From an uncultured Pseudohongiella sp. (GTDB lineage: Bacteria > Pseudomonadota > Gammaproteobacteria > Pseudomonadales > Pseudohongiellaceae), in NCBI GenBank assembly GCA_902591495.1, contig CACJAW010000007.1:1-64000 (forward strand): 64,000 nt of DNA. Reading direction: 5' to 3'. Below, piece by piece: positions 1,198 to 62,408 of the stretch (the first letter of the stretch is position 1; every line of letters starts with the position of its first letter). Both the position numbers and the translations under genes were made by a program. The notes under the pieces were generated by a model. That model did no database searches, had not been told where the DNA came from, and was given only the letters and a program-made list of their open reading frames with translations.

Positions 1198-3072
1198 ATG
1201 CAAGCCGTCAAAGAAAAAGACAACCATCTCAATGTCAACGAAAAAGAAACGCATGACGTGGTAGTTCGGTTTGCTGGTGATTCCGGCGACGGTATGCAGC
1301 TAACGGGTACTAATTTTACCCAAGCCACCGCTCTATATGGCAATGATCTTTCTACTTTCCCGGATTTTCCGGCAGAGATTAGAGCGCCTGTTGGAGCTAC
1401 TTTTGGAGTTTCTGCTTTTCAAATTTATTTTGGGGCCGATGACGTGACCACGTCCGGTGATGATGTCGATGTCCTAGTGGCAATGAACCCCGCAGCATTG
1501 GTTACAAATTTAGGGAAACTTGTAAAAGGCGGATTAGTAATTGTAGATAAGGGTGCGTTCACGCAGAAAAACTTAACAAAGGCTAAATATGAGATAAATC
1601 CGCTGGAAGATAATTCGTTAGATGGTTTTAGAGTGTTAAGTATTGATATACATAAACAAGTGCTAACGGCAGTGGAACCCTATGGTCTCAGTCACAAAGA
1701 TGCATTGAGATGTAAGAACATGTGGACTTTGGGATTGGTCATGTGGTTGTTCGATCGTGACAGATCTGCAACCATTGAGAGCTTAAATAAAAAATTTGCT
1801 GCAAAACCCCAGGTTGCCGATGCAAACATAGCCGCACTGAACGCGGGTCATGCCTACGGAGAAACAGCTGAATTACCGGCTGGCATCCATGTCTATAAAG
1901 TTCCAAAGGCAAAAGTCCCCCCTGGCATGTATAGAAACATTACGGGGACACAGGCTCTAGCCTATGGTCTGATAGCCGGGTCTGAACTCGCTGAAATTGA
2001 CCTATTATTTGCTTCTTATCCGATAACTCCCGCTTCAAATCTCTTGCATGAGCTTTCTTCTAAGAAAGGATTCCGAGTCAAGACGTTTCAGGCTGAGGAT
2101 GAAATTGCCGCGGTATGTTCAGCGATGGGAGCGTCCTTTGCGGGTTCTCTAGGAGTGACTTCCAGTGCTGGTCCGGGTATCGCGCTCAAGGCGGAGGGGA
2201 TTTCATTAGCCGTTGCATCTGAGCTTCCATTAGTAATTGTCAACACACAACGAGGCGGTCCATCTACTGGTCTGCCAACAAAAACTGAACAATCGGACTT
2301 TAACATGGCGCTATTTGGTCGCCATGGAGACACGCCTATACCCGTTGTAGCTGCCTCAACGGCAACCGATTGCTTTGATGTCGCGATCGAAGCGGTTCGA
2401 CTTGCTATAAGATACATGACACCTGTCATGATTCTGTCTGATGGTTATCTGGCTAATGCATCCGAGCCATGGAAAATTCCAAATTTTGATTCTCTTAAAT
2501 CGTTTAAAGTTAATCACTATGATGAGCCAAAAGATTTCAAGCCTTCGATCAGAGATAAAAACACCAACGCAAGGGTTTGGGCAAAGCCTGGCACGCCAGG
2601 AATGGAGCATCGAATTGGTGGCATCGAGAAGAGTTTCGAAACTGGTGATATTTCTTATGACCCAGCTAACCATCAAAAAATGACAGAATTGAGAAAGGAA
2701 AAGGTTGCTCAGATTGCCCATGACATACCTCTTCAGGAAGTTTGTTTTGGCGAGAGTGAGGGCAAGCTCGCCGTGCTTGGCTGGGGATCCACGTATGGTG
2801 CTATCCATCAAGCAGTTAAGAGGGCTGTTGCAGACGGAATGCAAGTATCGCATATTCACGTGCGGTATCTGTCTCCGATGCCGAGCAACCTCTGTGAGAT
2901 TCTGTCAAAATTTGATTCAGTTTTGGTTCCGGAGATGAACACCGGTCAATTCATAAAAATGATTCGCTCAGAGTTCCTAATTGATGCGCAAGGGCTTAAT
3001 AAAATAGCAGGTCAGCCATTTAAGATCGGTGAAATTCTTGCCGCTATCGTTGAAAAGTACCAGGACTTGTAG
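1198..3072 (+). CDS. korA: 2-oxoacid:ferredoxin oxidoreductase subunit alpha (gamma-alpha fusion, KorA type)
   Basis: N-terminal VVVRFAGDSGDGMQLTG gamma domain, then the alpha (PFOR-like) domain FASYPITPASNLLHEL...FQAEDEIAAVCSAMGASFAG; directly followed by a beta subunit. Confidence 0.9.
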   Translation: MQAVKEKDNHLNVNEKETHDVVVRFAGDSGDGMQLTGTNFTQATALYGNDLSTFPDFPAEIRAPVGATFGVSAFQIYFGADDVTTSGDDVDVLVAMNPAALVTNLGKLVKGGLVIVDKGAFTQKNLTKAKYEINPLEDNSLDGFRVLSIDIHKQVLTAVEPYGLSHKDALRCKNMWTLGLVMWLFDRDRSATIESLNKKFAAKPQVADANIAALNAGHAYGETAELPAGIHVYKVPKAKVPPGMYRNITGTQALAYGLIAGSELAEIDLLFASYPITPASNLLHELSSKKGFRVKTFQAEDEIAAVCSAMGASFAGSLGVTSSAGPGIALKAEGISLAVASELPLVIVNTQRGGPSTGLPTKTEQSDFNMALFGRHGDTPIPVVAASTATDCFDVAIEAVRLAIRYMTPVMILSDGYLANASEPWKIPNFDSLKSFKVNHYDEPKDFKPSIRDKNTNARVWAKPGTPGMEHRIGGIEKSFETGDISYDPANHQKMTELRKEKVAQIAHDIPLQEVCFGESEGKLAVLGWGSTYGAIHQAVKRAVADGMQVSHIHVRYLSPMPSNLCEILSKFDSVLVPEMNTGQFIKMIRSEFLIDAQGLNKIAGQPFKIGEILAAIVEKYQDL

Positions 3073-52398: not shown

Positions 52399-53580
52399 TC
52401 AGCATAACAAACTCTCTAGGATCTTTGGGATGTTTTTCTTGAATTGAAAAAAACCCTTCTGGCAATATTGCATAGAAATATGATCTTCATGCCTAAATAA
52501 GTAGCTATACTCAATTGAAGTTCTGGACTTTAACTGATCTAAGAACGTTAAATTTTCTCCGACAAAGGGGTAGACGATGTCGAACTTGTTGATGGAACTT
52601 ATGGTTGATTCTAGACCGGAAGAAAGTATTGTCGAATTTGGGAAAAATTCACAAAATTGTGCTACGAGATCCTTCTTATATTCTATTATTGAACTACTCA
52701 ATTTAATGTGTCTTGCATCGTTGGGTAAAGTTGCCACGAAAATATTTTTATAGCTATTATATAGTTCTTCTCGACCATTGAAATTAAGGTCGTTCTCAAA
52801 AATTAGTAAGTTTTCGTGCTGTTTTTTTTCATTAGCCGCAGGAATTTTTCTTGTGATCGGGTAATTCTTGTATTCAAGTTCGAGTTTAGGATTTTCATTA
52901 ACAAGGATTTCTTTAAATCGACCTTTAGTATACGTTTCAATATTGTGACTGCTAGCTTTGTATCGTTTACCCTTTGTTTGTAGGCCAGCGACCCAACGCC
53001 AACTTAGCGTATTCGATGCAGCATCTCCATCCGCCAGGTGCTCGAGGAAAAATCGAGCCCCAAGTTGCCAGGGTAATTCGAGCGTGAAGATCCAGATGCT
53101 CGCGAACCACATTCTTGCATGATTGTGAAGGTAATTAGTTTCTCGTAGTTCCCTTACCCAGCTATCGAAGCACTTTACTCCGGTGTTGCCTTTGAGCGCG
53201 GCTTCAAAATTAATACTATTGTCGCTAGTTGGTAGATCGATAAAATCGGTCCACACTTCTGGGCGCATTTCGAGCCAGCCTTTCCAGTAAATTCTCCAGA
53301 ATATTTCCTGAATGAATTTTTCGACTTTATGATATTCGTGTTTACAGAGGGCATTGCGGATCAAGTCATATTCACTAACTATCCGATGAGAGACATATTT
53401 TGATAATTTCGAGACATGACGATTTTCAGAGTACCCAAAGTCGAAATTTCTTTTCTTTGAGTATTCAAGAACTGGTCCTTTCAAGAAGGCATGAACTTCT
53501 TTTGAGGCCTGATCTTTGTATGTATGTGTGCCAATCGAAGTGGGCTTGTCAGGGGGTGAAAAATCAAATGTTGTCCCCAT
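52399..53580 (-). CDS. Photolyase/cryptochrome-like flavoprotein: N-terminal FAD-binding domain, C-terminal antenna-like domain
   Basis: FAD domain EYSKKRNFDFGYSENRHVSKLSKYVSHRIVSEYDL...IQEIFWRIYWKGWLEMRPEVWTDF...NYLHNHARMWFASIWIFTLELPWQLGARFFLEHLADGDAASNTLSWRWVAGLQTKGKRYKASSHNIETYTKGRF matches the photolyase C-terminal domain, but no antenna domain precedes it. Confidence 0.87.
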   Translation of the reverse strand: MGTTFDFSPPDKPTSIGTHTYKDQASKEVHAFLKGPVLEYSKKRNFDFGYSENRHVSKLSKYVSHRIVSEYDLIRNALCKHEYHKVEKFIQEIFWRIYWKGWLEMRPEVWTDFIDLPTSDNSINFEAALKGNTGVKCFDSWVRELRETNYLHNHARMWFASIWIFTLELPWQLGARFFLEHLADGDAASNTLSWRWVAGLQTKGKRYKASSHNIETYTKGRFKEILVNENPKLELEYKNYPITRKIPAANEKKQHENLLIFENDLNFNGREELYNSYKNIFVATLPNDARHIKLSSSIIEYKKDLVAQFCEFFPNSTILSSGLESTISSINKFDIVYPFVGENLTFLDQLKSRTSIEYSYLFRHEDHISMQYCQKGFFQFKKNIPKILESLLC

Positions 53581-53657: not shown

Positions 53658-53681
53658 CGGGGGACGCCTTGCGCGCCCCCG
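53658..53681 (-). terminator. GC-rich hairpin between the proteorhodopsin and photolyase-like genes (attenuator/processing stem candidate)
   Basis: CGGGGGaCGC-(5 nt)-GCGCCCCCG imperfect inverted repeat 14 bp past the proteorhodopsin stop codon; no U tract. Confidence 0.4.
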
Positions 53682-53694
53682 ATCCAAAATCAAT

Positions 53695-54471
53695 TTAACT
53701 TTGACTATCTTGCTTAGCTGCCGCCCATATCGCTAGGCCAAAAGCTGTTTTGTTGATCAAGTCAGCCAGGTTGTAAATCAAGTTCAGTGAGTCGTTATCG
53801 ACGCCACCTGCCATGTATCCGAGGAAGTATCCAATCGGATAGATCGCCCATCCCACTGTTACAATAAGTCGCAGCGTTTTAAACGCGCTCTGACTTGCTG
53901 CATTTCCCGAACTTTCCGAGACTTGGTTAGCCTCTCCGGCAAAGATGAGGTATATGATATAAATCCACCCTGCCATGCCCACTACGAACCCAATTGTTGG
54001 ACTGATAACTGCCGTTTCGCCTAGATATCCCCCTAGGAGCATTACAACTGATGCCCCGAGAAGCTGCCAAAAGAGTCCTGTTCGGACTGCAGTCACAGCG
54101 GCAAGTATCAGATAGAATTCAACAATTTGTAATGGTACGGTTATCAGCCAGTCGATGTAACGATAGACGGTCGGCGAATCACCCGTGGAAACCCACACGC
54201 CCCGCATATAAAGATAGTGCCAAAACGCGACACCAGTGACGAGACCGGCGACCGTAAGCGACGTACGCCATTTTACGGCCATGTCTCCGCGCTCAGCGAA
54301 AAAGAAGACGGTAGAAGCCAACATTATCGCGGTGGCTAACCAGAAAGATATGCCGACGAAGTCGTTTGTGGCAAGTACCACGCCTCCACCAGCATCTGCT
54401 GCTTGCGCTGCTCCGCCAAATAATGCAAAGAAGACTAGAGATGCGCTTAAAAAGGTTTTTAATTTCAACAT
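53695..54471 (-). CDS. Proteorhodopsin (light-driven proton pump, predicted blue-absorbing)
   Basis: Seven TM segments; RYIDWLITVPLQIVEFYLILAAV (D..T..E motif with Q at the tuning site), conserved His in AFWHYLYMRGVW, Schiff-base Lys in NLADLINKTAFGLAIW. Confidence 0.97.
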   Translation of the reverse strand: MLKLKTFLSASLVFFALFGGAAQAADAGGGVVLATNDFVGISFWLATAIMLASTVFFFAERGDMAVKWRTSLTVAGLVTGVAFWHYLYMRGVWVSTGDSPTVYRYIDWLITVPLQIVEFYLILAAVTAVRTGLFWQLLGASVVMLLGGYLGETAVISPTIGFVVGMAGWIYIIYLIFAGEANQVSESSGNAASQSAFKTLRLIVTVGWAIYPIGYFLGYMAGGVDNDSLNLIYNLADLINKTAFGLAIWAAAKQDSQS

Positions 54472-54668: not shown

Positions 54669-55793
54669 ATGAACTTTAAACTGACTTTCGGCGTTTCAAA
54701 GACTATGGCAAATTCGCATAGACTTATAACAAATCAAAATATTGTGACGCTTCACCGGGAATGCGACGCCGGTGATATAGCTGAGGTGCGCTTCAATCGC
54801 AAACCATTAGATCGCTTGCAAGTCCTTCACGAACAGTGCGAGACCTCCTTAAATGGCGCTCTAACCGAAGCATATCTATTTCACTTCACCAAACCCGGCA
54901 AAATGCTGAGAGCCCAATTGGCTATCCAGTCCGCTCGAGTGCATTCGGCAGATGCGGCCGACGCTGATCGCTGGGGATTTGCCGTCGAACTGATACACAA
55001 CGCGTCGTTAATTCACGATGATATCTGCGACTCTGACCTCTTTCGCCGCGGGCGGCAATCCGTCATGGCAAAATTCGGGCATCAAACGGCGCTTTGCCTG
55101 GGTGATGCGCTAATCGCCCATGCCTTTGGGTTACTTTCTAGGGAGAGTATCCCCAGAGCTCTAATAGCAAAGTTAGCTTCAATGGTTCGAGATTGTTCGG
55201 GCGGGCAAGCTCAGGAATTTGACACCCGAGGTTACCCTGACTGGTCTAGATATTGTGAGATAGCCGGCGGCAAAACCGCGAGCCTTCTCGCAGGTGCCGT
55301 GGAAGGAGGGGCACTTTTTGACCCTGCGGTAAGCGAGAATCCCTTACTCTCAAAATGTTGCTACCAGATGGCATTAGCCTATCAAATGCTTAATGATTGC
55401 CATAATATCGTGAGTCCGATTCTATCTAGAACTCCTTCGTCTGATTTCTCGAAAGCCCGACCAAATGCTCTCATAGTTCTTTTTAGAGATTCCCTAAGTG
55501 ATGAAGAGCGGAACGAATTCGATGTTTCTCTTCGCAAAGACTCCAAAACAGATCTCGATACACAGTTGAAAGGTTTGTGGTGGGATAGACTCGTTAGCTC
55601 GAACATGCCCCAAATGTTGGAAGAAAGGATATCTTCGATCATGAGCGAAACTCAATCTGACTATGAGCAGTTGTCACCCGCAATGCAACAAATAATAGCC
55701 CCTCTTATGACCCATACAATAAATGCAGTAGCAGAGCAAAACATTGCCTTGAGCGGTCAGTCAACGCATTACGCAAAAAAGCAGCATGGTTAA
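54669..55793 (+). CDS. crtE: Polyprenyl synthetase (geranylgeranyl diphosphate synthase, CrtE)
   Basis: First Asp-rich motif LIHDDICDSDLFRRGR; GKMLRAQL; first gene of the crt operon. Confidence 0.88.
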   Translation: MNFKLTFGVSKTMANSHRLITNQNIVTLHRECDAGDIAEVRFNRKPLDRLQVLHEQCETSLNGALTEAYLFHFTKPGKMLRAQLAIQSARVHSADAADADRWGFAVELIHNASLIHDDICDSDLFRRGRQSVMAKFGHQTALCLGDALIAHAFGLLSRESIPRALIAKLASMVRDCSGGQAQEFDTRGYPDWSRYCEIAGGKTASLLAGAVEGGALFDPAVSENPLLSKCCYQMALAYQMLNDCHNIVSPILSRTPSSDFSKARPNALIVLFRDSLSDEERNEFDVSLRKDSKTDLDTQLKGLWWDRLVSSNMPQMLEERISSIMSETQSDYEQLSPAMQQIIAPLMTHTINAVAEQNIALSGQSTHYAKKQHG

Positions 55794-57318
55794 TAGCCAG
55801 GAGTATTGGCTGCCGCTCGAAGATGGGCGGATGATCGACAAGCATTTTGTTGTTGTGGGTAGTGGTTTTGGCGGATTAGCCATGGCAATTCGTCTAAAAG
55901 CTCATGGTGCAAACGTAACACTGGTTGAAAGACTTTCAAATTTAGGCGGGAGAGCCCAAGTTTTTGAGCGGAACGGCTTCATTCACGACGCCGGACCGAC
56001 AGTTATAACTGCCCCATTTTTGTTTGATGAACTTTTCGATCTCTTTGGTAAAGACCGGAGGGACTACTGTGAGCTAATTCCTCTGTCCACCTGGTACGAT
56101 TTTATCTTTGAAGACGGATCTAAATTTAGCTATAAGGGAGATTTAGACCATACCTTTGAGCAAATTAGGCAATTTGAACCTAGTGATGTGCAGGGCTACA
56201 AGCGCTTACTAGATCTATCAGAATCGATTTTTAGAGTTGGATTCGAGCAACTATCTGACCAACCGTTCACTAGATTTTGGACGATGTTGAAGCAAGTGCC
56301 CGCACTACTGAAGCTTCAGAGCTACCGAACGGTATATGGCCTAGTATCAAAATATATATCCAACGAAAAATTACGAAAGGTTTTTTCTATTCACCCGCTT
56401 CTGGTGGGAGGTAATCCTTTTACAACTACTTCTATTTATACTCTTATCCATTTTTTAGAAAGAAAGTGGGGGATACATTTCGCTCGGGGAGGGACTGGTG
56501 CGCTTGTTAAGTCGCTCGAAAAATTAATGACCGAGGAAGGCGTTACAATAGAAACAAATTTTGACGTAACAAGAATAGAAATCAATCCTCAGACGAAAAA
56601 GGTGACCGGTCTTTCAAGTGCTGATGGTCGAGAAATTGTTTGCGATGGATTAGTCTTTAATGGTGATCCTCCCTATGCTTATGAGAACCTTCTGCCAACT
56701 GGCCTGAAACGCCAAAGATTAAGGCGGCCGGACTTTAGTACCAAATTTTCAATGGGGTTGTTCGTTCTTTTTTTTGGTACTAAACATGCCTATGACGAAG
56801 TCTCCCATCATACTATATGGCTGGGGAGAAGGCACAAAGAACTACTAAAAGATATTTTTGATGTCAGGTGTTTAGCCGATGATTTCTCGTTGTATGTGCA
56901 CAGACCAACGGCGACTGATAAATCTTTCGCACCAGAGGGGTGTGACAGCTTTTATGTGCTTTGTCCTGTTCCTAATCTACAGTTAGATACAGACTGGGAT
57001 ACTGAGGGTCATGCTTTGCGGGATCGAATTGTTGTCGCTCTGGAAAAGACTATCTTACCTAATCTTAATAAGTACATAACTGATGATTTTTGGATGAGTC
57101 CGAAAGACTTCCGTCGCGATTACAAAAGCGTTTGGGGAGCCGGTTTTTCTATTGCGCCCATTCTTTCTCAGTCAGCATACTTCCGTTACCATAATAGAGA
57201 CCCAGAGGTTAATAATCTTTTTTTTGTAGGAGCAGGCACGCATCCTGGTGCAGGAGTGCCAGGTGTATTATCATCAGCAAAAGTTACCGAAAAGTTGATT
57301 TTAGAATCGACTAGATAG
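55786..57318 (+). CDS. crtI: Phytoene desaturase (CrtI)
   Basis: FVVVGSGFGGLAMAIRLKAHGANVTLVERLSNLGGRAQVFERNGFIHDAGPTVITAPF; C-terminal NLFFVGAGTHPGAGVPGVLSSAKVTEKLI. Confidence 0.96.
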   Translation: MVNSQEYWLPLEDGRMIDKHFVVVGSGFGGLAMAIRLKAHGANVTLVERLSNLGGRAQVFERNGFIHDAGPTVITAPFLFDELFDLFGKDRRDYCELIPLSTWYDFIFEDGSKFSYKGDLDHTFEQIRQFEPSDVQGYKRLLDLSESIFRVGFEQLSDQPFTRFWTMLKQVPALLKLQSYRTVYGLVSKYISNEKLRKVFSIHPLLVGGNPFTTTSIYTLIHFLERKWGIHFARGGTGALVKSLEKLMTEEGVTIETNFDVTRIEINPQTKKVTGLSSADGREIVCDGLVFNGDPPYAYENLLPTGLKRQRLRRPDFSTKFSMGLFVLFFGTKHAYDEVSHHTIWLGRRHKELLKDIFDVRCLADDFSLYVHRPTATDKSFAPEGCDSFYVLCPVPNLQLDTDWDTEGHALRDRIVVALEKTILPNLNKYITDDFWMSPKDFRRDYKSVWGAGFSIAPILSQSAYFRYHNRDPEVNNLFFVGAGTHPGAGVPGVLSSAKVTEKLILESTR

Positions 57319-57323
57319 TTACT

Positions 57324-58283
57324 ATGACGTCGGATGAAGAGATAGAGAATCGTTCAAAGGCAATTCTGTTTCGAGATGGAAAAACATTTTGGTTTGTTTC
57401 GCGATTTTTGAGCAAAAAATTTTCTCGAGACGCGGCAAGATTATACGCATTTTGCAGAATGTTGGACGACTGGGCTGATGTTGGTGACCATGCCGGCCCC
57501 AAGAAGCTCGACGATTTAGTAGAGTTTTTTAACAGTTCTTCACGAATAAAAAATAATTTCAAAGATCGCATTTCGTCTATCAAAACCTTTTCTGAAGAAG
57601 AAAAAAAATTGACATTCGAATTCCTAAGACTTGGATTATCCCGTCCTATCCTCCTGCAACTTCTAAAAGGTCTACAGAGGGATACCGAACGTGCATTAAT
57701 TGAAGAAAAGTCTGAGCTTATCGTGTATGCCTATCGTGTTGCGGGCACCGTCGGTCTATTTATGGCGCAGATACTCGGAGCAGAGAGTGAAAAGGCAAAG
57801 TATTATGCTGTAGATCTTGGGATAGCTATGCAATTAACGAATGTTTGCAGAGACGTTTTAGAGGACGCACGAATGGGTAGGAGATATTTACCTAGTAGTT
57901 TTCCACCTAAAAATATAGCGGAAGCAGATTTAAAAACACGGGAGGCCATTGCAGATTGTATCCGTGAAACGCTCATTCTTGCAGATCGCTACTACGAGTC
58001 AGGTGTTCAAGGAATTCACTACCTCCCGAGGCGGTGCAGGTTTGCTGTCTACATGATGGCAAAGATCTATCGGCATATCGGTGTCTTAATTTTGAGTAGT
58101 GGAGTTACCTGGTGGGAAGAGCGTGTCTACGTACCTATTTATAAAAAGATCTTTCTGACTCTTTCCGCCCTTCCAAAAGCCCTCATTTATCTGATTAGTA
58201 GTGATGCACAAAAAGAAGAGAGAAAGGAGCATGCCGCGCAGTTGCATGAAGTCTTGCTCGGGCTGCCAGGCGTTGATAAATGA
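57324..58283 (+). CDS. crtB: Phytoene/squalene synthase family protein (CrtB)
   Basis: SRDAARLYAFCRMLDDWADVGD; YAYRVAGTVGLFMAQILGA; GIAMQLTNVCRDVLEDARMGRRYLP. Confidence 0.96.
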   Translation: MTSDEEIENRSKAILFRDGKTFWFVSRFLSKKFSRDAARLYAFCRMLDDWADVGDHAGPKKLDDLVEFFNSSSRIKNNFKDRISSIKTFSEEEKKLTFEFLRLGLSRPILLQLLKGLQRDTERALIEEKSELIVYAYRVAGTVGLFMAQILGAESEKAKYYAVDLGIAMQLTNVCRDVLEDARMGRRYLPSSFPPKNIAEADLKTREAIADCIRETLILADRYYESGVQGIHYLPRRCRFAVYMMAKIYRHIGVLILSSGVTWWEERVYVPIYKKIFLTLSALPKALIYLISSDAQKEERKEHAAQLHEVLLGLPGVDK

Positions 58284-59395
58284 CTATTTCTAGGGACGAT
58301 TCAATTGGTATCGTAGGAGCTGGATTATCCGGCTTGTTGCTTGCTAATCAACTAATTGCGAGAGGATACGAAGTAACTCTTTTCGGTGAAAAAGACAACA
58401 GAAATCAAATATTAGGTAGCTGGCGAAATGCAGCTACGCCGTCGCCTCAAAAGCATTATGTGTTAGGTAATTGGTATTCGTGGGAATTCAAATTTAATAA
58501 CCAAAAATTCTTACAAAAAGGTGCCAAGTACCATTATGAAGTCATTGACGGAAAAGCGATGAAATCGGATATTGAGAATAGTCTCCAAAGGGTTTCAAAC
58601 TGCACCAGAATACTCGAAAATATTGCTTCTATAAAACGTCATGATAGAGGTCAAGAGGTCAGTTTTGAATCGGGGAGACAAAGCGTTCCTGTAGACTTTT
58701 TGGTTGATACTCGTCCACCGATCAGAGCGACTTCATGCTGTGTTCAGCAATTTATCGGACTTTATGTAAATATAGCTCCGAGCGATATTGGGTTGGACAA
58801 GCCCTTGATCATGGATTACGGATCATGCGGGACGGAGAAAGATAATTCAGCATTTATATATGCGCTTCCTTTATCTAATGGTCGAGTCCTCATTGAGGCA
58901 ACAACATTTGATGTTAAAGTCAGAAATGATAGTTTCTTTTTGAGAAACATTGAATCATGGTGGTCGTTGCGTACTGAGCAGAACTTAAAGGACAAAATCG
59001 AATGTAAGGAGAGTGGAATATTGCCGATGGGTAAGATTAAGCCGCGCTTTAATCCAGAGAATTCCTTTGGGTCTGCTGGAGGAGCAACACGACCTGCTAC
59101 AGGTTACACCCTGGTGGGCATAGAGAGGCAGTTGCAAACGACTGATTTATGGACAATAAGCGGAGGGATCCCAAAGTTTGAATTTTCAAAACTTAGTCAG
59201 TTTATGGATTCAAAGTTTTTGAGGGTCCTTCGAAATGAGCCAAGCAGCATGAGAGAGATATTCCACGAAATGGCGAGAGGCATGACCGGCGATGAATTCG
59301 CACGGTTTTTGTCAGATAGATTTAATCTTAGGATTGCTGCTAAAGTCATTTATAAAATGCCTAAACGGTTATTTTTAAGAAATTTATTCAGGTGA
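58280..59395 (+). CDS. crtY: Lycopene cyclase (CrtY)
   Basis: IGIVGAGLSGLLLANQLIARGYEVTLFGEKD; FIGLYV; YALPLSNGRVLIEATTF; SAGGATRPATGYTLV; position between crtB and blh. Confidence 0.92.
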   Translation: MTISRDDSIGIVGAGLSGLLLANQLIARGYEVTLFGEKDNRNQILGSWRNAATPSPQKHYVLGNWYSWEFKFNNQKFLQKGAKYHYEVIDGKAMKSDIENSLQRVSNCTRILENIASIKRHDRGQEVSFESGRQSVPVDFLVDTRPPIRATSCCVQQFIGLYVNIAPSDIGLDKPLIMDYGSCGTEKDNSAFIYALPLSNGRVLIEATTFDVKVRNDSFFLRNIESWWSLRTEQNLKDKIECKESGILPMGKIKPRFNPENSFGSAGGATRPATGYTLVGIERQLQTTDLWTISGGIPKFEFSKLSQFMDSKFLRVLRNEPSSMREIFHEMARGMTGDEFARFLSDRFNLRIAAKVIYKMPKRLFLRNLFR

Positions 59396-60267
59396 CTATT
59401 TTGCTATCAGATCTCGAAATTATCTGTCTTTTAGCTATTGCCGTTTTTGGAGTGCCGCATGGCGCTTTTGACTATGAATTCATCAAGACAGCGACAAAAG
59501 AACGCGGTGGTAATTTCGCATTGATGATTGCTGCTTATCTAACACTTGTCATTCTCTCTTTAATATTATGGTTTTTGGCGCCAACCTTTTCGATTCTCAT
59601 TTTTCTTCTAATTTCGACTTATCATTTTGGTGCTGCCGATGCATTAAATTATGGTATCAAGTCAGAAAATCTAAAACATCTCAAAATCTGCTCGACGATT
59701 ATGCAGGGTGGCCTCATCACTGTTTTGCTACCATTGCTTCATTGGGCAACGATTTCGGAATACTTTCGCGAGCTTCAAAGCGACCATGGAACATTGTTAA
59801 ATTGCCTCATGCTCGGCGGTCTTGTCTGGGCAATAAGTGCCTTGGTTGTCTTTGTGAACCTCTTTCAAAGTAAACAAAGAGAAAAGCTTATTGCCATACC
59901 TTTAATCTGTTTGTCAGTTTGGGTGATGGAGCCGTTGCTATTTTTTGCGATTTTCTTCTGCTGCTCTCACTCATGGTCTCATTATAAGAAAAGCCACCGG
60001 CGCCTCTCGTTTGAAGGTTTTTCCCCGTCAGCGAGCTTTTTTGCTATAACGGTCTTGGCGTGGGTATTAATTGCTATAGTTGGTCTAGGTCTCTTGTCCG
60101 TGAGCGACGAAGGACTCCGGCTTACTTCAAATCCTAATCTATTGAGGGGAGTTTTTGCTTCGCTTTTTGCTTTGACTGTCCCGCACATTCTAGTAGTAGA
60201 TTTCCTGATCTTCTCCATATGGCGAACGGAAGGGTCGACTCCAGAAGACAGCGTATTAACAACGTGA
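59392..60267 (+). CDS. blh: Brp/Blh family beta-carotene 15,15'-dioxygenase (retinal-producing)
   Basis: FGVPHGAFDYEFI, STYHFGAADALNYG, FCCSHSWSHYKKSHRR, LTVPHILVVD histidine motifs; polytopic; GTGA overlap with crtY. Confidence 0.94.
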   Translation: MTILLSDLEIICLLAIAVFGVPHGAFDYEFIKTATKERGGNFALMIAAYLTLVILSLILWFLAPTFSILIFLLISTYHFGAADALNYGIKSENLKHLKICSTIMQGGLITVLLPLLHWATISEYFRELQSDHGTLLNCLMLGGLVWAISALVVFVNLFQSKQREKLIAIPLICLSVWVMEPLLFFAIFFCCSHSWSHYKKSHRRLSFEGFSPSASFFAITVLAWVLIAIVGLGLLSVSDEGLRLTSNPNLLRGVFASLFALTVPHILVVDFLIFSIWRTEGSTPEDSVLTT

Positions 60268-61280
60268 ACTCAGAATCAGAAATTCACAAAAGAAAAAACG
60301 ACCATCTCGCCTTGGCTGGTTCCCCCGCGTGCCAGATGAATAGTTCCAACGGCCTTGAAACCGTTCTCTTTGAGCCAGTGGCATTACCCGAGTTGAATTT
60401 TGCTGAAATAGATACCCGCGTTCAATTCGTAAATAAACCCCTATCGTTTCCGTTTTTGATTTCTTCCATGAGCGGAGGTGTGCGCGAGGCAGACAAAATG
60501 AATACAACTCTTGCCGAGGCAGCTGAGGCCTGCCAAGTTGCCTTGGGATTGGGATCTATGCGAATAGCCTTGGAAAAAAAATCTGCTCGGACATCTTTCA
60601 AATTGCGGAGTATTGCTCCAACTATCCCAATTTTGGCGAACATTGGTGGCACACAGCTTATCCAGAGGAATGGGACTTGCGATGCTCTTCGATGTATTGA
60701 GTTAGCTGAAGCAGATGGCATCTATGTTCATCTCAATGCCCTGCAAGAATTATTACAGCCAGGAGGCGATACTGACTGGCGAGGCGTTTCGGCAGCAATA
60801 AAAGAACTTGTTGCTGAGTCGCCCGTACCTGTTTTTGTCAAAGAGGTCGGCCATGGGATAAGCGCCAGTTCAGCTAAAATACTGATTGACCTCGGTGTTT
60901 CATGGATAGATGTCGCCGGCACTGGTGGCACGAGCTGGAGCCAGATAGAACATACAAGGAGCGGAGTAAGAGGGACTTCTGCTTTCGCTGAGTGGGGTGT
61001 AAAAACTAGAGAGGCAATTGAAGCAATCAGAGGTAATGGGAACTCGTGCAAGTTGGTTGGGTCAGGAGGGCTTCGCAATGGATTAGATGTCGCGAAAGTT
61101 ATTCGGATCGGAGCTGATATTGGTGCCGCCGCGCAACCATTCTTGGAACCAGCAAGGACGAGCGTGGACAAGACCATTCAGGTTATTAAATCTTGGGAAA
61201 AAGATCTAAAGATTGCCATGTTTTGCACCGGTAGTAAAAATCTAACTGAATTGAAGATAGCTAAATTACTTTCAGGTTGA
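60264..61280 (+). CDS. fni: Type 2 isopentenyl-diphosphate delta-isomerase (FMN-dependent)
   Basis: HKRKNDHLALA, FPFLISSMSGGVREADKMNTTLAEAAE, ALGLGSMRIAL, DVAGTGGTSWSQIE, VGSGGLRNGLDVAKVIRIGADIGAAAQPFL. ORF track opens at 60219; GTG 60264 gives a 4-nt GTGA overlap with blh, matching the other junctions. Confidence 0.92.
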   Translation: MNSESEIHKRKNDHLALAGSPACQMNSSNGLETVLFEPVALPELNFAEIDTRVQFVNKPLSFPFLISSMSGGVREADKMNTTLAEAAEACQVALGLGSMRIALEKKSARTSFKLRSIAPTIPILANIGGTQLIQRNGTCDALRCIELAEADGIYVHLNALQELLQPGGDTDWRGVSAAIKELVAESPVPVFVKEVGHGISASSAKILIDLGVSWIDVAGTGGTSWSQIEHTRSGVRGTSAFAEWGVKTREAIEAIRGNGNSCKLVGSGGLRNGLDVAKVIRIGADIGAAAQPFLEPARTSVDKTIQVIKSWEKDLKIAMFCTGSKNLTELKIAKLLSG

Positions 61281-61286
61281 AGGATA

Positions 61287-62408
61287 GTGAAACTCGAAAC
61301 TGAAGTACAACTCACATCAAAGGTTGTCTCTGCGCTCAAATTAATGTTTGTTGCAGACTCGTTGTCCATGCCCACTCATTGGTTTTATCGAATTGCAGAT
61401 ATTTATTCCTTTTACCCGAATGGTATAACAACTTTAGAGAATGCGCCTTCACACCATCCGGGTTCGATTATGAGTCTTCATTCGGTTGAAGGAGGAGGGC
61501 GGAAGAAAAATTCCCATACAAGTAAGTCTTCTCAAATTGTCGGTGATGTAATTCTTAAGGGTAAAGAAATTTACTGGAATCGACCAAACATCCACTATCA
61601 CCACGGAATGCGGGCTGGAGAAAATACACTTAATGCCCATTGCGCTCGACTCTTAATGCGAACTATTAATTCGAATGGTGGTAATTACGATAAGACCCTA
61701 TTTTTGCAGGCGTACATAGATTTTATGACCTCAAATACACCTCTGCATCCGGATACCTATGCAGAATCATATCACCGAGAATTTTTTGCAAACTTAGAGC
61801 GTGGTCTGCCTGCTGAAAGTTGTGGAGGTAAAACTCATGATACTGCCTCGATTGGTGGTTTAGTAACGATAGGCCCTCTTGCACTGTCACTATTTTTATC
61901 GGGACTAAATGTCTCTGAGGTAAGAAAAATTTGTTCTGAACACCTACAATTAACTCATCCTGATAGCCATCTGCGGAGAATTTCTGAATCATATGTAACA
62001 CTGTTGGGGAGACTACTTCTAGAAACAAATACGAAAGATTTCGCCGAGCTCATAAAGGAAATCTCGATCGAAAGTATTGGTATAAATATTGAGGAATTGG
62101 TGCGAAGGCAGTTGTCTGATGAAATGGTAGTTGGAGGAAAGTTCTCCTCCGCATGCTATATCACAGATTCATGGCCGAGTGTTTTATATCTTGCCTTAAA
62201 GTATATTGATGATCCAAAGAAAGCTCTCTTAGTAAATGCAAATCTCGGTGGAGATAATGTTCACAGAGGAGTCGTACTCGGAACAATACTTGGATTAGCA
62301 AGTTTCTCTGATCCTGTTCCTTTCTACGACGAATTAACCGAGAGCGAAGCTACTACCAGAGAAATAGAAATGCTTTGCAGTTCGAGTCAGTCTTTAGAAG
62401 TCTCCTAA
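61287..62408 (+). CDS. ADP-ribosylglycohydrolase-like (DraG/ARH fold) protein
   Basis: FVADSLSMPTHW, HHGMRAGENTLNAHCARLLMR, THDTASIGGLVTIGPLAL, ANLGGDNVHRGVVLGTILGLASF match the layout of the ARH fold; 6 bp after idi. Confidence 0.78.
   Translation: MKLETEVQLTSKVVSALKLMFVADSLSMPTHWFYRIADIYSFYPNGITTLENAPSHHPGSIMSLHSVEGGGRKKNSHTSKSSQIVGDVILKGKEIYWNRPNIHYHHGMRAGENTLNAHCARLLMRTINSNGGNYDKTLFLQAYIDFMTSNTPLHPDTYAESYHREFFANLERGLPAESCGGKTHDTASIGGLVTIGPLALSLFLSGLNVSEVRKICSEHLQLTHPDSHLRRISESYVTLLGRLLLETNTKDFAELIKEISIESIGINIEELVRRQLSDEMVVGGKFSSACYITDSWPSVLYLALKYIDDPKKALLVNANLGGDNVHRGVVLGTILGLASFSDPVPFYDELTESEATTREIEMLCSSSQSLEVS

Follow-up and report, generated by a model that had tools for sequence, protein, structure and literature searches.

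A very probable NewPHL-class photolyase, with its FAD domain first and a Rossmann-like domain last, adjoins proteorhodopsin in an uncultured Pseudohongiella

In an uncultured Pseudohongiella, a gene adjoining that for proteorhodopsin (PR) very probably encodes a photolyase of the NewPHL class, the short photolyase-like proteins of inverted topology. It was found in a stretch of 64,000 nucleotides, here called the window. The protein is set in this class by published descriptions and by the features that could be tested: an FAD-first domain order, a tryptophan dyad (by sequence), and no FeS cysteines were all found. Membership in the class would explain the swapped domain order. A preliminary description of the locus had seen a new geometry in that order, but there is none to claim, because a swapped photolyase of this kind belongs to a widespread class whose inverted topology is already published (PMC13274461, PMC9426592). 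The gene and its two domains, with the evidence for each, are as follows.

52399..53580, minus strand: putative NewPHL/SPL-type photolyase gene, 393 aa (intact ORF, Pfam, family search, AlphaFold)
52930..53508, minus strand: N-terminal helical FAD/catalytic domain, residues about 25–217 (Pfam FAD_binding_7, hhalign, AlphaFold helices 21–217)
52402..52818, minus strand: C-terminal Rossmann-like alpha/beta "Z-domain," residues 255–393, with the motif D366...KGFF-FK--IP (AlphaFold, Foldseek, family conservation)

The 393-aa frame is free of internal stops, as had been reported. Upstream of its ATG the frame stays open for only 38 codons, too few for an antenna domain ahead of the FAD domain, and no DNA_photolyase (antenna) domain was found at the N terminus with Pfam, with NCBIfam, or in the upstream frame. 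The protein does start almost directly with the FAD domain: canonical photolyases align with residues about 25–217 (hhalign probability 99.8%, E = 3e-28), and FAD_binding_7 (PF03441) matches residues 89–207 (E = 8e-21). The NCBIfam photolyase models match the FAD half only, with scores far under their cut-offs. When the protein is aligned jointly with canonical photolyases and a segment of Escherichia coli PhrB, the PhrB residues E274, W277, R278, N341, D372, D374, and N378 correspond to E92, W95, R96, N153, D184, D186, and N190, which upholds the four equivalents named earlier (E274, W277, R278, and N378). The FAD and electron-transfer residues are invariant across the alignment of the NewPHL-like family. 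The tryptophan triad W306/W359/W382 that had been proposed stands in part: W359 and W382 align with W171 and W194, but W306 has no counterpart. None of the 15 family members in a multiple alignment carries Trp in the W306 column, where the query has T118, and Trp is also absent there from the columns of the 70-member alignment; W110, in RPEVWTD, pairs with PhrB W300 and not with W306 in a pairwise alignment. With no Trp in that column, the electron relay of the family is, on this sequence evidence, a dyad (W194/W171) and not the canonical triad. FeS cysteines are absent, because only a single column of the 70-member alignment, C137, has at least 50% Cys.

Relatives are encoded at no fewer than 589 places in the sampled prokaryotic genomes (genome contig scan). 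The best 80 of these at least 589 mostly match residues about 22–391, and so are nearly full length, at roughly 35–51% identity; they have the same domain order, for which the preliminary description had proposed to search. Their holders are Pelagibacterales, Rhodobacterales, other alphaproteobacteria, and some gammaproteobacteria. In a tree, the query clusters with a copy from a congeneric sister species (G001), with one more gammaproteobacterial sequence (the third), and with sequences of SAR116/OM182. This cluster adjoins the Pelagibacterales branch, and the resulting Pelagibacterales/SAR116/gammaproteobacterial branch is separate from that of the Rhodobacterales. The gene occurs in 3 of 37 genomes of the genus, several of them incomplete and its own only 66% complete; its distribution is therefore patchy, and it was perhaps acquired laterally. 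All 11 alphaproteobacterial genomes examined have one partial FAD_binding_7 match above the cut-off, the others being canonical and nearly full-profile, and because there is one such partial match per genome, the Rhodobacterales NewPHLs can hardly be other proteins. Annotated plasmid-borne relatives, for example that of Ruegeria sp. TM1040, are named only "FAD-binding domain-containing protein." No full-length relative was found in viral contigs or phage records, and the top matches in a viral structure library are photolyases over the FAD half only. When the family profile was searched against PDB sequences, all matches were canonical photolyases and cryptochromes and covered the FAD domain; there is thus no evident solved structure of a NewPHL.

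The founding NewPHL paper is Emmerich 2020. NewPHLs, or SPLs, repair cyclobutane pyrimidine dimers (CPDs) in single-stranded DNA and have an inverted domain topology (PMC13274461). The proteins of Dinoroseobacter and Methylobacterium, which act on single-stranded DNA, have their FAD domain at the N terminus and a Z-domain at the C terminus, and Prochlorococcus "phr7" belongs to the same class, Phr7 being without FeS cysteines (PMC9426592). The Dinoroseobacter shibae NewPHL has a "mere Trp dyad" (PMC8948257). With NewPHL, SPL, and Phr7 the query shares the N-terminal FAD domain, a C-terminal non-antenna Z-domain, a length of about 380–420 aa, the dyad, the lack of FeS cysteines, and a family with many alphaproteobacterial members. 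It differs from these published proteins in that it is gammaproteobacterial, adjoins proteorhodopsin, and has Met in place of W370. Trp occupies residue 370 (52471–52473, minus strand) in 80% or more of family members; both PR-linked copies have Met there, and the third gammaproteobacterial copy likewise has no Trp.

An AlphaFold2 model built from the 70-member alignment (mean pLDDT 93.5, pTM 0.91 for the whole protein) has helices at residues 21–217, then a five-stranded alpha/beta domain at 257–362, and then further helices. Together with Pfam and hhalign, this layout agrees with the FAD-first, alpha/beta-last order of the preliminary description. Modeled alone, the C-terminal domain takes the same fold (pLDDT 92.5). 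In Foldseek searches of the PDB, whose alignments run in sequence order, the FAD half resembles class I, class III, DASH, and plant cryptochrome structures. For the C-terminal domain, the best E-value belongs to phosphopantetheine adenylyltransferase (5e-4, TMq 0.50) and the best TM-score among the matches listed to PhrB 5kcm (TMq 0.56, probability 0.98, rmsd 4.0, 128 columns), followed among those listed by 6dd6 and 6x24 (0.53 each). The matched part of 5kcm is presumably its N-terminal alpha/beta domain, because this is the sole alpha/beta domain of that structure. Adenylyltransferases give similar TM-scores, and the fold is a generic one. As modeled, then, the C-terminal domain is Rossmann-like and, at the level of fold, antenna-like. 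Conservation across the 70 members is high in the FAD domain (mean majority frequency 0.75 for residues 89–217) and lower in the C-terminal domain, apart from its last 31 residues (0.55), which contain the invariant D366, G376, and F378 and the motif KGFF-FK--IP.

The C-terminal half might descend from an antenna domain that was once N-terminal, shifted to the other end of the protein, and perhaps still binds a chromophore, a reading that is compatible with NewPHL membership and that we regard as possible but rather unlikely. The Rossmann-like fold, whose strands succeed one another as they do in the antenna domain, speaks for it, as do the top TM-scores listed, all of them to photolyase/cryptochrome chains, and a weak but collinear profile match: against a profile of 45 antenna domains the C-terminal half scores 21.0 in hhalign, above 30 column shuffles (maximum 16.1) and the reversed profile (12.5). 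The hhalign controls comprised positive, reversed, shuffled, CoaD, and universal stress protein (Usp) comparisons. Against the reading, the probability of the match is only 4% (range for the C-terminal half versus the antenna domain, 1.6–4.1%), compared with 51% and a score of 33.1 for the positive control, antenna versus DPRP; the Usp control scores 21.4, equal to the antenna match. The best Foldseek E-value, moreover, goes to the adenylyltransferase, and DNA_photolyase (PF00875) was found in the C-terminal half of none of the 70 members. Pfam gave nothing significant for the C-terminal 139 aa, and a PDB profile search with this half gave no significant antenna homology. Antenna-domain homology by sequence was therefore rejected, Pfam, the PDB profile search, and hhalign all being non-significant. 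Of the antenna likeness earlier ascribed to residues 255–393, the Rossmann-like fold holds and kinship by Pfam or profile comparison does not; the two checks proposed for it, fold and a PF00875 match, gave opposite answers. "Circularly permuted antenna" describes at most a fold-level resemblance. Because the strands follow the unpermuted beta-alpha-beta order, the domain is at most relocated to the other end of the protein and not permuted internally, so a circular permutation within it, as the earlier reading had it, is not indicated.

The neighborhood of the gene comprises the following features.

53658..53681, minus strand: GC-rich hairpin in the gap between PR and the photolyase gene, without a T-tract and with a z-score of only -1.5
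53695..54471, minus strand: proteorhodopsin, 258 aa, 114 bp upstream of the photolyase gene and co-directional with it (ORF list, Pfam)
54669..61280, plus strand: divergent crtE, crtI, crtB, crtY, blh, and an FMN-dependent idi2-like gene, the carotenoid/retinal genes for PR (Pfam; same order in the sister species)

The adjacency to proteorhodopsin that had first drawn notice is real, and the sister species has the same block of PR, NewPHL, and carotenoid/retinal genes in the same order (blh encodes beta-carotene 15,15'-dioxygenase). In both species the carotenoid/retinal part of the block ends with a conserved ADP-ribosylglycohydrolase-family gene (61287–62408, plus strand). A terminator scan found no T-tailed terminator between PR and the photolyase gene; a hairpin similar to that of the window can be read downstream of PR in the sister species (L125, about 1450–1475, minus strand), and it is possible that the hairpin attenuates read-through from PR. 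The arrangement of PR and NewPHL beside carotenoid/retinal genes is slightly unusual: a search of the flanking sequence fetched for the other 80 loci, up to 6 kb on either side of NewPHL, found no PR. A second photolyase gene lies within about 6 kb in 33 of these 80 homolog loci, which speaks for a role in repair. In many Pelagibacterales (loci L003 and L008–L033, mostly of this order) a DPRP-type photolyase gene lies a few kilobases from NewPHL on the opposite strand, and the NewPHL gene and this DPRP-type (prokaryotic 6-4 type) gene could form a photorepair island.

The setting lends some appeal to an improbable alternative, that the protein is a cryptochrome-like light sensor regulating the PR/carotenoid cluster and not a repair enzyme, since in two species its gene lies next to that of PR and runs in the same direction, and since the genome additionally encodes a canonical photolyase of 521 aa. 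The lack of PR in the flanks of the other 80 loci, the photolyase genes near 33 of them, the retention of the catalytic residues, and the fact that published members are CPD photolyases (PMC9426592, PMC13274461) all argue against it. More doubtful still is a combination of readings, in which the C-terminal domain is a relocated antenna still in the antenna position and the PR-linked protein works with the PR cluster, for example under shared light control, and not in stand-alone repair. The absence of the N-terminal domain and of the end of the Pfam FAD domain might suggest a canonical photolyase that is truncated or in decay, or else an artifact of assembly or a frameshift, but this can be dismissed: the frame is intact, the ortholog of the sister species is nearly full length and 65% identical, and the alignment of 70 homologs, conserved through the C-terminal domain, argues decisively against it.

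If the protein is a NewPHL-class photolyase, its CPD repair, preference for single-stranded DNA, and FAD chemistry would be those of the published class. The N-terminal helical domain would bind FAD, which may be photoreduced through a relay of two tryptophans, W194 next to FAD and then W171. Under blue light FADH- would donate an electron and so split cyclobutane pyrimidine dimers, the substrate most likely being CPDs in single-stranded DNA. The Rossmann-like domain would replace the C-terminal helices of ordinary photolyases (in PhrB, those after about residue 405); to judge from the model, it probably closes the FAD pocket and does not hold an antenna pigment. Because NewPHL adjoins PR in two species, a light-harvesting pump and light-driven repair would share one cluster. 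What is new here is this pairing, conserved in one gammaproteobacterial lineage, which would bring together light capture and light-driven DNA repair at one locus, along with the proximity of many Pelagibacterales NewPHL genes to a second, DPRP-type photolyase gene.

Other photolyases resemble the query in part. E. coli PhrB, a class I CPD photolyase, and the 521-aa photolyase of the same genome share its FAD core and the equivalents of E274, W277, R278, N378, W359, and W382; in contrast to both, the query has the opposite domain order, no PF00875, no W306, and other structure in place of the C-terminal helices. The preference of DASH cryptochromes for CPDs in single-stranded DNA parallels that published for NewPHL, but DASH carries an N-terminal antenna domain, and the query scores 51.7 bits with the NCBIfam DASH model, far under its cut-off of 317. 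In Phr4+Phr5 and Phr6 of Synechococcus/Cyanobium the FAD domain precedes the photolyase alpha/beta domain, as in the query; these proteins, however, carry FeS cysteines and an InterPro-recognized photolyase domain (PMC9426592), and the query has neither. Another photolyase-like protein with its FAD domain first is of a second kind: it is encoded at L086:1345–2598 in an organism of the same order as the query's, is about 417 aa long, and has FAD_binding_7 at residues 89–216 and a C-terminal half without a Pfam match. Its FAD domain is only 32% identical to that of the query, and by BLASTP the C-terminal halves are unrelated.
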